Of a stretch of DNA of 64,000 nucleotides, positions 17,881 to 22,219 are shown piece after piece. The notes under the pieces are model-generated. The model ran no database searches. It was not told the DNA's origin and worked only from the letters and a program-made list of their open reading frames with translations. Source of the stretch: Phycisphaerales bacterium (GTDB lineage Bacteria > Planctomycetota > Phycisphaerae > Phycisphaerales > SM1A02); contig SIAD01000004.1 in assembly GCA_009691915.1 (NCBI GenBank), positions 62,001 through 126,000 of the forward strand, in the 5' to 3' direction. How positions within the stretch are numbered: position 1 is the stretch's first letter; every line of letters starts with the position of its first letter. The position numbers were made by a program, and so were the translations under genes.

Positions 17881-18750
17881 ATGCGACCTCGCATGCTCGT
17901 GACCGACCTCGATGGCACGCTGCTCAACCGCCAGGGCGAAGTCTCCGAGGCCAACGCGAGGGCGATGAAACGAGCCAGCGATGCGGGGATTGAAGTGGTT
18001 GTCGCGACCGGCCGCGCCTTTGTCGAGTGTCACGGGGTCGTCCGCGGTGTGCTTGAATCTGGCTACGCGATCTCTGCGGGCGGGGCCGCGCTCCACGACA
18101 TCGCCTCGGGAGAATGCCGCGACAGCCAGGCGATTTCGCACGACCTCGTCGAACACTGTACGGAGAGCCTTCTCGCCCACGGGCATCTGGCCCACCTTCT
18201 CAAGGACCCTCATCAGGCTGGTTTCGACTATCTGCTCGTTGGGGACTCCGCCCTCGACGACGCGAGCCGCTGGTGGTTCTCGGTTCACCCGCTTTCGACG
18301 AGATCGGTGCCGACGCTTGACCAGTATGAAGGAGGCCGCTCGGAGGCACTGCATCATGTACTGCGGGTGGGGACGGTCGCTCCCGTCGCGGAACTAGAGG
18401 CGGTGGCGAATGCGATCACCGCGCAGGTCGGTGAGCGGCTCGCCATCAGACACTGGCCCGCGCTGGTGGCGCTTGGTACCGCCGGGATCGAGACCCACCT
18501 GCTGGAGATATTCGCGGCGGATGTCGACAAATGGACGATGGTCGTGCGCCTGTGCAGGCGGCTCGGCATCGATCCATCAACGGTCGTCGCGGTCGGCGAC
18601 GGACTCAATGATCTTGGGATGCTTCGCGGGGCCGGTCTCTCCTACGCAGTCGGCAACGCGTCGGACAGCGTCGTGGCGGCGAGCCACCGTCGTGCCCCCG
18701 ATCACGATCTCGACGCGCTCGCGTTCGTAGTCGACGAGATCCTCGCCTAG
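17881..18750 (+). CDS. HAD-superfamily hydrolase, Cof/IIB type
   Basis: A 289-aa cytoplasmic phosphatase of HAD subfamily IIB. Motif I is MLVTDLDGTLL (nucleophile D9, acid/base D11), motif II is VVATGR near residue 43, and motif IV is VAVGDGLNDLGML with the magnesium-binding acidic pair. A cap domain sits between motifs II and III. Members act on sugar phosphates or flavin/pyridoxal phosphates; the substrate cannot be predicted. It is divergent from the TPR-like gene with only 26 bases between starts, and is followed 22 bases later by the large IOR-like gene on the same strand. Confidence 0.88.
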   Translation: MRPRMLVTDLDGTLLNRQGEVSEANARAMKRASDAGIEVVVATGRAFVECHGVVRGVLESGYAISAGGAALHDIASGECRDSQAISHDLVEHCTESLLAHGHLAHLLKDPHQAGFDYLLVGDSALDDASRWWFSVHPLSTRSVPTLDQYEGGRSEALHHVLRVGTVAPVAELEAVANAITAQVGERLAIRHWPALVALGTAGIETHLLEIFAADVDKWTMVVRLCRRLGIDPSTVVAVGDGLNDLGMLRGAGLSYAVGNASDSVVAASHRRAPDHDLDALAFVVDEILA

Positions 18751-18772: not shown

Positions 18773-21700
18773 GTGCTCCACCCTGAAGGAAATGGCATTG
18801 GCGCATCGTGGACGCCGCCCTTGGCGCGTGCCGACGGATACGCGCTCTGCACGGCGGCGGAGGCGCTCCTCAAGGGTTTTCTGGAGACCGAACTCGATGT
18901 TCATGCAGTTTTCGCCGTACGCGCTTCGGCGTTCGGGGGGCTCTTCGCAGTCGTCGACAGCGAGGAGCACCGCGTCGTGCTCGCCCGCAACGGTGTCGAA
19001 GTCATCGAAGTCGCCCACGCGTCGCGCGGGATCGAACTTGCGGCGCAAGAGGCGTCACGGGGGAGGCGCACCGCCGTGCTCGTCGGAAACGAGGAGCTGG
19101 ACGCGGTGATCCTCGCGCTTGCCGAGATCGCGCGCGTTCCGCTGCCGGTGGAGGCAGGCATCTGCCTGGTACTCGAAGACAATCCATACGCAGTTCCGAC
19201 GACCTGTCCCCGGCGCGTCTGTCGCCGCACGGGGCTCGTGGCTCTGGAGCCCAGCGACCTCAGCGCGCTCAGGGACGCCTGTGATGGAGCGATGCGACTG
19301 TCGCGCGGGACGCGGCGCCCCGCGGTCATCGTCACCCATGTCTCGCTGCTTCGTTCCGGGGCAACGCTGCCCGTGGCACCGAATCGGCAGGTGAGCAGGA
19401 TGGACCACGCGGCGTGGCTCCGGCGCCGAAGAGTGCAGCGCGCCGCGGACGCGACGGATCCGCTGCAGATTGTGAGGCGGATGGAAGTGAATCGCCTCGA
19501 GCACCTGCCAAATCCCGGTGAGCGCGAGCAGTACGGATTCATCGCCGTCGGCGCCGCGGCGACGGCGGTGCGCCACATGCTCGACGAACTCGGGCTCTCC
19601 GGCCGCGTGCCGCTGCTGCGGCTGGTGGCACTCGACCCACTCGACGAGGCGGTCGTCTCGCGCATCCTCACACGGTGCCATCATGTAATCGTCGTGGAGC
19701 CGAGGCCGGGCTCGGTGGCTCCTCGCATCGTGGCGCTGGCCCAGACGATGAAATCCATCGACACTCCTCCCGCTCAGGTGTGGTGGGACTCGCTTCCTGC
19801 GGCGGCAGGCGATGTCGAGAAGCTGGGGATCAACGATGGGATGCGTACCAGCCTCCTCACCCGGAGGGTCATCCGCCTTCTGCACGAAGTGCGCCCTCGG
19901 CTCAATGTCGAAGAGCGACTGGCGCGGATTCCGGCGTCCGTCGCCACCATGGCGATTCCGCGCCGTTCCCACGGCATCGGGTCGGGCGCGGCGCGCGAGG
20001 CCATTGAGGCCGCGATCGCTGCCGCCGCGGCCACGCTGGCGTCGCGCACGGGAACCGAAATCGCCGCGCGCGGCATCGTGTCGGAACGGGGAGCGCCTCC
20101 GGAGTGCGCCACGCTGTGCACGATTGAAGTCTGGGATCTGGCAAGGTTTGTCCGAGACTCGATCGCGCTCATTGATCAAGTCGCACGCGAGTCCGGTCCG
20201 CGTGTCGTCGTGGTGACCGAGCTCGGTGGCAGTAGTAGGGTCGACTGCGAACGGCTCGCTCGCGCCGTCGCCGGATCGGGGGTCGAAAGCCGACTCGCCT
20301 TTGTGTCGATTGATCTCAACGACCACAAGGGCCTTCATGCGGCACTTGTGGCCGCGGCCGACTCTAACTCGCTGACGGTGGTGACTGCGCGAGACGGCCC
20401 GCCCGCGCGTTATGACATCGCCGCGCACAATCGAAGGGCCCAGGAGATCGACCGCGATGGATTCCTCAGGCAACAGCGTTTCGTTCTTCCCGCCGACAAT
20501 GCGTGTGAACTGAGGGATCCAGGTCTGGCAACGCAGGTGGCGCGAGGGCTCCTGCGCGGCGCTGATCCGCTTCAGGCGGAGCCTCGCGTGGAACGGCTGT
20601 CAGTTCCGGGCGGACAGGGGATCCATGTGAAAGTCGACCTCCTATATGAGCAGGTCGAGATCGTTCGGAGCCGGCCACCGGCGGCGATCGACGCACTACG
20701 CGAACCCCTTCGAATGGCTCCGCCCACTCCGCTGCACGCAACTCAGGGGATCTGGCGTGCGCACTTGGCGGGGATTCGAGGAGATGCTCCCGGCGCCGCG
20801 GGTCAGGTGATCGCAGAGGCGGGGCGCGCGATGGGCTTTCGTGTGGAGTGGACGCACCTTGGTGCGGCGATCGGACCAGGACGCCGCGCTTGGTCGCAGG
20901 TGATGTTCACTCGCATGGACACTCCGTCCGGATCAGGCCACGATCCGGCGGTCGACGGCCTCTCGGAGCTCCCCAGCGTCGCCGTGCAGATTCCCTACGG
21001 GGAGGCGGATCTGGTGATGGGTGTCGATCCCGTCGAGACGATTCGGGCTGTGGCGACCGATCCACAACTTCGCGTGGCCAGTCCCACGGTGACCGCGATT
21101 GTCGCCAATACCCGGCCGCTCGAGGACCAGATCGATCCGGAAACGATGGTCGCGGCAGCGCAGTTGGCGTCCGCGGTCGAGGCGACCACGATGCCGGATC
21201 GTCGTGTTCTCCTCGACTTTGCCTCGGATGTCCGCGGGATATTCCTGACTGACCGACCCGTCGATCTCGTGATCGTTGGTGTGGCGTTTCAGCGCGGGTT
21301 CATCCCCGTGTCGATCGAGGCGCTGGAGGCGGCGGTTCGACGGCTTGAGGCGCGTGGCTATGCCCGCAGTTTTGAGGCGATCCAGCTGGGCCGCGTGCTC
21401 GGCGGAAGTGGCGCCCCGGCACAGGGCATACCGCGAGGCACGCGAACTGATGCTGCGACCGATGCACTGCGTCTTGCGCGGCGGGTGAGCGCGGATCGAC
21501 AGCTTGGTAGACGGCGCGATCGAATCCGCGGCGAGCGCCTACGGACGGCGGTCGCCGCCACACTGGCGCGGATGAGCGACCTCGGTTCGACTAGCGACGG
21601 ACGCACGGCCCTGCGCGACTTCGCGACGGCGATGCGACGATGCGAGATGTGGGGCGGATTCGAGTACGCCATGCGCTACGCCTCGGTCATCGAGCGACTG

Positions 21701-22219
21701 TTGGGGTCGACTCCCGACGCCAGCGCCCTTGAGCTGGCGAAGCTCACGATCCTTCCTGTGGCCGAACTGTTCCTGATCCGCGATCTCTGGTATGTCGGTG
21801 CGCTTACCACGAGCCTCGATCAGAGCCATCGCATCCGCGCGACGCTGGGTGTGCGGCTCGCGCGCGGCGACGAGATTCACCGACGCTACCTCCACCGGCT
21901 CGACATCCGCCTCCGCTCGCGCCAGTGGGTGATCGAATTCCGCTCCAGCGACTGGCCTGACCGGATCCTGCGCGCGACGCTGCCATGGATCCCCTCCGGG
22001 CTGCGTGGCACCCTCGTCCAGCGTCAGTCGCGCGAGACGCTTGTCCGACTCATGGAGCGGGCGGCCAGGGAAGTGGATCGGCGCGCGGAGTGGATCGAGT
22101 GTGCGCGGATCCTTCTCGGAGCCGCCATTGACGGAAGTCTGCGCACCCTTGATTCAGAGGGAATCAAGGCGATCGCCCCCGACACCACTCGAAATGCGCC
22201 AGGCGCCGAGGGCGCCTAG
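18773..22219 (+). CDS. Indolepyruvate:ferredoxin oxidoreductase-like fusion lacking visible cofactor motifs
   Basis: A 1148-aa protein whose domain order follows fused IorA-IorB proteins. About 25-200 resembles the pyrimidine-binding domain (GICLVLEDNP, LEPSDLSALRDA, RRPAVIVTHVSLLRSG). About 250-335 is the transketolase-C-like domain (YGFIAVGAAATAVRHML). About 660-860 is the IorB/gamma domain (EADLVMGVDPVETIRAV, AIVANTRPL, GVAFQRGFIPVSIEALEAA), and about 940-1060 resembles the C-terminal DUF6537 region. Expected catalytic elements are not seen: there is no CPGCPHR-like or GDG..N TPP motif, no ferredoxin CxxCxxC clusters, and the gamma GGQG reads RGDAPG. It may be a non-catalytic homologue or work differently. 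The start is GTG 18773 without a clear ribosome site. Confidence 0.7.
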   Translation: MLHPEGNGIGASWTPPLARADGYALCTAAEALLKGFLETELDVHAVFAVRASAFGGLFAVVDSEEHRVVLARNGVEVIEVAHASRGIELAAQEASRGRRTAVLVGNEELDAVILALAEIARVPLPVEAGICLVLEDNPYAVPTTCPRRVCRRTGLVALEPSDLSALRDACDGAMRLSRGTRRPAVIVTHVSLLRSGATLPVAPNRQVSRMDHAAWLRRRRVQRAADATDPLQIVRRMEVNRLEHLPNPGEREQYGFIAVGAAATAVRHMLDELGLSGRVPLLRLVALDPLDEAVVSRILTRCHHVIVVEPRPGSVAPRIVALAQTMKSIDTPPAQVWWDSLPAAAGDVEKLGINDGMRTSLLTRRVIRLLHEVRPRLNVEERLARIPASVATMAIPRRSHGIGSGAAREAIEAAIAAAAATLASRTGTEIAARGIVSERGAPPECATLCTIEVWDLARFVRDSIALIDQVARESGPRVVVVTELGGSSRVDCERLARAVAGSGVESRLAFVSIDLNDHKGLHAALVAAADSNSLTVVTARDGPPARYDIAAHNRRAQEIDRDGFLRQQRFVLPADNACELRDPGLATQVARGLLRGADPLQAEPRVERLSVPGGQGIHVKVDLLYEQVEIVRSRPPAAIDALREPLRMAPPTPLHATQGIWRAHLAGIRGDAPGAAGQVIAEAGRAMGFRVEWTHLGAAIGPGRRAWSQVMFTRMDTPSGSGHDPAVDGLSELPSVAVQIPYGEADLVMGVDPVETIRAVATDPQLRVASPTVTAIVANTRPLEDQIDPETMVAAAQLASAVEATTMPDRRVLLDFASDVRGIFLTDRPVDLVIVGVAFQRGFIPVSIEALEAAVRRLEARGYARSFEAIQLGRVLGGSGAPAQGIPRGTRTDAATDALRLARRVSADRQLGRRRDRIRGERLRTAVAATLARMSDLGSTSDGRTALRDFATAMRRCEMWGGFEYAMRYASVIERLLGSTPDASALELAKLTILPVAELFLIRDLWYVGALTTSLDQSHRIRATLGVRLARGDEIHRRYLHRLDIRLRSRQWVIEFRSSDWPDRILRATLPWIPSGLRGTLVQRQSRETLVRLMERAAREVDRRAEWIECARILLGAAIDGSLRTLDSEGIKAIAPDTTRNAPGAEGA

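Follow-up and report, generated by a model that had tools for sequence, protein, structure and literature searches.

A putative pseudoenzyme lineage of the fused indolepyruvate:ferredoxin oxidoreductase family maintained under purifying selection in Phycisphaerales

A fused oxidoreductase homologue and its domains

We analysed a stretch of 64,000 nucleotides (hereafter, the window) from a Phycisphaerales bacterium (contig SIAD01000004.1, positions 62,001 to 126,000), whose genome assembly of 2.27 Mb in 34 contigs is 95.9% complete. The forward strand carries, at positions 18773-22219, an open reading frame (ORF) of 1148 codons with a GTG start and no internal stop. Its product, which we call pseudo-IOR, appears to descend from the fused indolepyruvate:ferredoxin oxidoreductases (IORs), a kind of 2-oxoacid:ferredoxin oxidoreductase (OFOR), and has lost nearly all of the residues by which these enzymes bind thiamine pyrophosphate (TPP) and iron-sulphur (Fe-S) clusters. 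The features of the locus are the following:

18773..22219, + strand: pseudo-IOR, fused IOR homologue without the motifs, 1148 aa (from the ORF, NCBIfam matches, alignment and AlphaFold model)
18830..19462, + strand: domain I, pyrimidine-like, residues about 20-230; catalytic Glu position lost (AHAS for NNEA, motif table); residues 19-381 match the fold of OFOR, DXS and E1-beta chains
19463..19957, + strand: domain II, transketolase-C-like, about 231-395; holds R235, P246, G249, G260 and E309
19958..20512, + strand: former TPP-binding domain, about 396-580, shortened; TPP-enzyme-like fold, motifs gone
19979..19999, + strand: GSGAARE, residues 403-409, aligned to CPGCPHR of intact homologues
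20504..20506, + strand: Cys578, the sole ancestral Fe-S cysteine left
20513..20737, + strand: former 4Fe-4S region, about 581-655; other cysteines gone; misleading GGQG at 613-616
20738..21382, + strand: gamma/POR-like domain (domain III), about 656-870; NCBIfam match at 737-917, alignments to pyruvate:ferredoxin oxidoreductase (PFOR) extending to model residues 877-881
20771..20794, + strand: GIRGDAPG, residues 667-674, in place of GVGGMGIG; R669 in 99% of 69 rows of the window's family
21383..22162, + strand: C-terminal region, about 871-1130, mostly helical, aligned to the DUF6537 end of intact homologues
17881..18750, + strand: Cof-type haloacid dehalogenase (HAD) phosphatase (PF08282, E 9.8e-40), 22 bp upstream of pseudo-IOR and, from its adjacency, a possible co-transcribed partner

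Profile searches gave a faint but coherent signal. The NCBIfam scan returned IOR-family matches at E 4.3e-12 (best stretch, residues 737-917) and 9.2e-12 (737-978) and an IOR_alpha match at 7.9e-05 (88-327); two IOR beta models scored only above E 0.01. All these matches are far under their cut-offs: the protein reached 44.8 and 43.5 bits against PRK13029 and PRK13030, whose curated thresholds are 952 and 816. A Pfam scan of the protein found no family at E<=1 and a sequence search of the PDB gave no match, and a PDB search with the profile A2 yielded five: an OFOR alpha subunit (4e-08), two proteins with a TPP N-terminal domain (6e-05) and two unrelated chains (above 0.05). Among members of the window's family, Pfam detected DUF6537 in 5 of 21 and POR in 2 of 21, neither of them in the window protein, and membership is weak by Pfam alone. 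Intact homologues from the same bacterial order, with the same succession of domains (pyrimidine-like, transketolase-C-like, TPP, Fe-S, gamma and DUF6537) matched it with a best piece at E 1.9e-49. Homology and domain order thus indicate that the window protein is a full-length homologue of fused IOR. The ancestry and domain order proposed in a preliminary description of the sequence are borne out by the alignment, the motif counts and the predicted structure, and its suggested check with profiles of IorA/IorB and DUF6537 gave the IOR-family matches just described.

Loss of the cofactor-binding motifs

Motifs were counted in a 135-row alignment, comparing the 73 rows of the window's family (f1) with 30 motif-intact rows of the same bacterial order (f5, most of f6 and one f2; other families are likewise labelled f2 to f6) and with 15 proteobacterial IORs. 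Each count gives the rows with the residue over the rows with a letter at that position. Twelve f1 rows, named loci (L053-L072), were assigned by similarity and synteny, not by family code; among the intact rows are a fragment (L166) and two that read GDS instead of GDG (L139, L147). The alignment omitted L001 (the window itself), L117, L037 (another IorA-type protein), L064 (suspected duplicate) and the split gene L182/L069, an f1 member divided into two frames by an in-frame stop (L182:4890-8393, + strand, equal to L069:5881-9384). Also omitted, as having the same score and length as retained rows, were L051, L052, L056, L058, L060, L062, L065, L066, L131 and L132; 15 of the 58 loci L073-L130 were used, and the split L050 was represented by its larger piece.

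The window protein shows GSGAARE where intact homologues have CPGCPHR, WDLARF for MGDGTF and TELG for the Asn loop, and the HGDTGC/GMG stretch is almost wholly deleted. Neither the TPP/Mg motif (GDG...N) nor the catalytic Glu nor a CPGCPHR-type cysteine motif was found in it. In the Fe-S region, CELRDPG replaces CEYCLEC, QVAR replaces TGCP, V-PGGQG replaces CVNDGAC and KVDL replaces HACP, leaving one of the seven aligned cysteines and no ferredoxin-type cluster; the 12 cysteines of the whole protein include no CxxC pair. The gamma loop reads GIRGDAPG instead of GVGGMGIG and no longer fits GxGGxG, with glycines 1 and 4 kept and 3 and 6 lost.

The same losses extend across the 73 f1 rows, scattered single matches aside, as the preliminary description had suggested examining. 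For the TPP set, the pyrimidine-domain Glu occurs in 0/70 rows, the first and second Cys of CPGC in 1/72 and 0/72, the GDG Asp in 1/71 and the loop Asn in 1/71; the first Gly of GDG is kept in six rows. Six of the seven Fe-S cysteines are at zero, and the first, Cys578, persists in 62/73. Of the gamma-loop glycines, the first is present in 73/73, the third in 0/73, the fourth in 65/73 and the sixth in 4/73. The residues lost in f1 (Glu, both CPGC Cys, GDG Asp, Asn, six Fe-S Cys and the third gamma Gly) occur in 29/29 or 30/30 intact rows and in 15/15 proteobacterial IORs, and both groups keep CPGC/CSGC-type cysteines and the gamma glycines. The GD of HGDTGC is confined to planctomycete rows (0/15 in proteobacteria). 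The motif loss claimed at the outset therefore holds for CPGCPHR and GDG...N and, for the Fe-S clusters, everywhere except at Cys578. As to the gamma GGQG reported missing, the loop has indeed changed, but two of its glycines survive and a literal GGQG exists at 613-616, where it aligns with the former Fe-S region.

The motif set is also absent from six f4 rows and from five rows (one of them a fragment) of g34, a genus of f6. What is left in f4 is one Fe-S Cys, the first gamma Gly in six rows and the third and fourth in one each; in g34, the first, fourth and sixth gamma Gly remain in 4/4, 3/4 and 2/4. Six further f6 rows (L046, L156, L158, L159, L160 and L164), a partly broken group that was named after the motif table had been inspected, keep all seven counted Fe-S cysteines and have altered TPP motifs, and they are candidate intermediate states of the loss. 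The median distance from CPGC to GDG is 45 residues in f1, 46 in f4, 78 in intact rows, 79 in g34 and 56 in proteobacteria, so that about 33 residues are missing in f1 relative to the intact rows. The segment after the Asn loop measures 6, 10, 25, 20.5 and 14 residues, respectively. The deletion is common to f1 and f4.

Predicted structure

An AlphaFold2 model built on 28 aligned rows reached a predicted local distance difference test score (pLDDT) of 84.6 and a predicted TM-score (pTM) of 0.83. Among the matches listed by Foldseek and VIA-align, the first 18 Foldseek matches of the whole model are PFOR chains, and in VIA-align domains I-II align with OFOR chains at Z up to 28.3 and domains I-III with PFOR at Z 27.1 over 489 residues (7plm), 26.6 over 485 (6cip), 26.2 over 504 (1b0p) and 23.3 over 490 (2c3y); the VIA-align comparison is little test of the model beyond residues 19-381. 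Structure prediction, another check that the preliminary description had called for, thus produced a good model in which domains I-III match the PFOR fold.

The former TPP domain folded alone with pLDDT 75 and pTM 0.64. It resembles TPP enzymes in VIA-align (Z 8.7-10.3 over 109-129 residues among the 50 rows listed, the best being 10.3 over 113); Foldseek gave no match at E<=0.001 (best E 1.3e-3). This resemblance is what might speak for a still-active 2-oxoacid oxidoreductase holding TPP and Fe-S ligands in altered positions. However, GDG...N, the catalytic Glu and about 33 residues of the domain are gone, and a single Fe-S cysteine, in a protein with no CxxC pair, is all that is left of seven, which makes continued activity of this kind very unlikely. 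With the known cofactor sites missing, the ancestral oxidation of 2-oxoacids would be impossible.

Distribution, phylogeny and selection

Homologues of about equal length were found in 36 of the 37 f1 genomes, the exception (G032) being 72% complete. Overall, 51 of 61 genomes had matches: f1 36/37, f4 6/6, f5 6/6, f6 3/5, f2 0/6 and f3 0/1. In an order-wide draw, 148 of 251 genomes matched at E<=0.001, a few of them weakly; at least 92 f1 genomes had a match and none was among the 20 unmatched genomes listed (83 more were unmatched). In a draw from the phylum, 17 of 294 genomes matched at E<=1e-40, and the only new near-full-length match, L203 from another family of the class, carries CPGCPHR, HGDTGC, CxxCxxC and GVGGMGIG; a search of it for the MGDG pattern gave no match.

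In rooted trees of 50 of the 135 rows and of 33 rows, which are subject to long branches and uneven residue composition, f1 grouped with f4 (99, starred); in the 33-row tree, f1, f4 and g34 formed one clade (support 90), which the partly broken L158 adjoins. Since an approximately unbiased test did not reject the grouping of g34 with f5/f6 (p-AU 0.233), the motifs may have been lost in one or two events.

We estimated the ratio of nonsynonymous to synonymous substitution rates (dN/dS) with our own Nei-Gojobori code, on pairs that share members and several of which have dS >1. For pseudo-IOR, eight pairs from within a genus, with dS of 0.23-1.53, gave 0.074-0.106, and the window copy compared with L002 gave 0.160 (dS 1.35). 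Over residues 20-1130, five f1 pairs gave 0.064-0.102 vs 0.072 and 0.132 in two intact IOR pairs, a third (L153/L155) being saturated and without dS. Among neighbouring genes of the same genus, measured on untrimmed stop-to-stop frames cut by locus ends, rlmN gave 0.074-0.111 in four pairs, and three control values stood well above the remainder (HAD 0.354 in one pair, YfgM 0.379 and 0.339 in two). The former TPP domain alone gave 0.049-0.139 in five f1 pairs; in the two intact pairs it was lower than the whole protein (0.083 vs 0.132 and 0.049 vs 0.072).

A gene decaying on its way out might be suspected from the dN/dS of f4 (0.23) and g34 (0.35), one pair each, and from split frames in single members (L182/L069 in f1, L050 in f4). 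In f1, full length is kept in nearly every genome and dN/dS is 0.06-0.11, similar to those of intact IOR and rlmN, and decay is highly improbable. Motif loss in f1 brought no decay, which agrees with the earlier argument for selection. The predicted fold with its catalytic residues lost, together with purifying selection, fits a pseudoenzyme, and the evidence from sequence indicates that pseudo-IOR is such a lineage within the fused IOR family, one not previously described.

Conserved residues and possible function

Columns conserved in at least 95% of 69 f1 rows include, among others in common with intact homologues, R235, G260, E309, R632, H655, Q840, G842, P845, G873, R874, D1033 and W1061. 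Ten others are new with respect to the intact consensus: E238, R297, R301, E452, D560, R669, R821, R828, D831 and R1078. Arg accounts for six of the ten, which is our ground for favouring an anionic ligand or partner.

Retention of domains I and II, which also take part in contacts between subunits in OFORs, might suggest that pseudo-IOR has a regulatory or structural role as a pseudo-subunit of some other, intact OFOR in the cell; so might the six of 18 genomes of other f1 genera that hold a PF01558 protein besides pseudo-IOR. The search for a second, intact IOR recommended in the preliminary description found no second homologue and no other PF01558 protein in the window's own genome, and no PF01558 protein in 19/19 genomes of its genus (the positive control matched 11 of 14 known genomes). 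Pseudo-IOR is therefore unlikely to assist an intact OFOR there, and this explanation, largely refuted for the genus, deserves very little credence.

The common order of genes in f1 is rluD<, yfgM-like<, HAD>, pseudo-IOR>, rlmN<, ispH<, hpnC>, hpnD>, names that come from sequence reading except for the scanned HAD gene, which has a DLDGT motif. Of 50 f1-type loci left after removal of duplicates, 35 have a HAD gene next to pseudo-IOR in the same orientation, and the stop-to-stop frames of the two genes range from an overlap of 229 bp to a gap of 51 bp.

We consider it very probable that pseudo-IOR is under selection and no longer an OFOR. A fused IOR descendant would have kept its large multidomain architecture, be unable to bind TPP-Mg or [4Fe-4S] in any known way, and have become fixed in f1 under strong purifying selection. 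Its gamma and C-terminal domains, with E238, R297, R301, D560, R669, R821, R828, D831 and R1078, may bind an anionic ligand or partner. Our best guess is that it functions as a scaffold or sensor without a redox role and is often produced along with the Cof-type HAD phosphatase encoded upstream. A non-catalytic role in general seems fairly likely, and its specific form with a ligand and the HAD phosphatase is only tentative. The new role foreseen in the preliminary description thus gains support as far as selection is concerned, and an altered redox enzyme, one of the forms it had suggested, is disfavoured because no cofactor ligand set remains.

Several observations weigh against this interpretation. 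Fifteen of the 50 loci lack a HAD neighbour in the orientation of pseudo-IOR (3 with an opposite-strand match and 12 with none, of which L059, L070 and L071 begin at a contig end), and the gene is therefore not obligatory. The yfgM-like gene, rluD, rlmN, ispH and hpnC/D are similarly syntenic in f1, so that the adjacency of HAD may be inherited order and not function. With 140 Arg and 7 Lys in the protein, the Arg-rich conservation may partly reflect base composition. The dN/dS of the former TPP domain exceeds that of the whole protein in four of the five f1 pairs, and this domain may be somewhat freer than before. Whole-chain superposition of the model on PFOR is poor (TM 0.29-0.33, root-mean-square deviation 17-19 Å), a result to be anticipated if the TPP domain has a different place in the chain.

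Finally, the new charged residues and Cys578 could equally constitute a new active site. Such a neofunctionalised enzyme would have a TPP- and Fe-S-free centre made of f1-new residues, for instance for CoA- or phosphate-linked transfer or a lyase reaction in the gamma domain or domain II. The strong conservation of the ten new residues, the persistence of Cys578 and a dN/dS as low as that of real enzymes are compatible with it. However, no partner in a pathway can be recognised, and seven of the ten are consensus in neither f4 nor g34 (the exceptions being R297 in g34, R301 in f4 and R828 in both); we regard this explanation as possible, though doubtful. For the broader proposition that a complete TPP/iron-sulphur OFOR lost its cofactors in Phycisphaerales and was remodelled to serve a new function, near-universal in one family, either a new activity or a ligand-sensing scaffold, the chances appear to be about even.

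Ketoacyl-synthase genes near related fused IORs

Of 41 loci of f5, f6 and f2 with an intact or dead fused IOR, 29 also carry a ketoacyl-synthase gene no more than 2.6 kb away from it, in every case on the other strand (e.g., L150:3333-4712, - strand). It is divergently upstream in 24 of 33 f6 loci, including all five of g34, and in the single f2 locus (1/1); in f5 it is downstream on the opposite strand in four of seven. In g34 the dead IOR is directly followed by a 1195-aa fusion (L161:1401-4985, - strand) of 2-oxoacid dehydrogenase E1 alpha and beta, a lipoyl domain and ketoacyl-synthase III (KAS III, FabH). The same E1-lipoyl-KAS III fusion occupies the same place in G057 (L197, G057:C14:282643-286221) and is found at full or near-full length in G041:C93 and G053:C22. 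Such a protein could use 2-oxoacids directly to prime the synthesis of fatty acids or polyketides. The ancestral setting may have been the making of acyl starter units from 2-oxoacids, with the g34 fusion as a candidate substitute.

The f1 and f4 loci examined with flanks contained no ketoacyl-synthase gene at E<=1e-15. We dropped this link for both families, f1 genomes having only weak generic matches; all f4 genomes except G051 have a close ketoacyl-synthase homologue elsewhere. In f4, a 279-aa protein without a Pfam match precedes the dead IOR, their frames almost touching (L134:8532-9368, - strand, and the same place in the other five loci), and a gene with an ATP-synt_ab domain, which we read as Rho-like, follows it.

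Comparison with known systems

OFORs are old, cofactor-heavy redox enzymes, and a lineage without TPP ligands and nearly all Fe-S ligands under strong selection would test the other uses of their fold, its partly broken relatives being candidate intermediate steps of cofactor-motif loss. Since the window protein has no Pfam match, a near-universal gene of a bacterial family now looks like an orphan. A literature search, whose coverage lay mostly outside subscription journals, found no OFOR-family pseudoenzyme and no paper on pseudo-IOR.

With the fused IORs PRK13029 and PRK13030, pseudo-IOR has in common homology, domain order and a DUF6537-like end, but it lacks the TPP, Fe-S and full gamma-loop motifs and about 33 residues of the TPP domain, and scores far below the family cut-offs. 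The predicted fold of its domains I, II and III (gamma) agrees with that of PFOR (7plm, 6cin-6ciq, 1b0p, 2c3y) over 485-504 residues. However, identity is 9-13%, the cofactor ligands are absent and whole-chain TM is 0.29-0.33; in PFOR, the TPP domain stands at another place in the chain than in fused IOR. Bacterial pseudoenzymes in general combine a conserved fold, lost catalytic residues and maintained selection, and pseudo-IOR appears to resemble them in all three respects.

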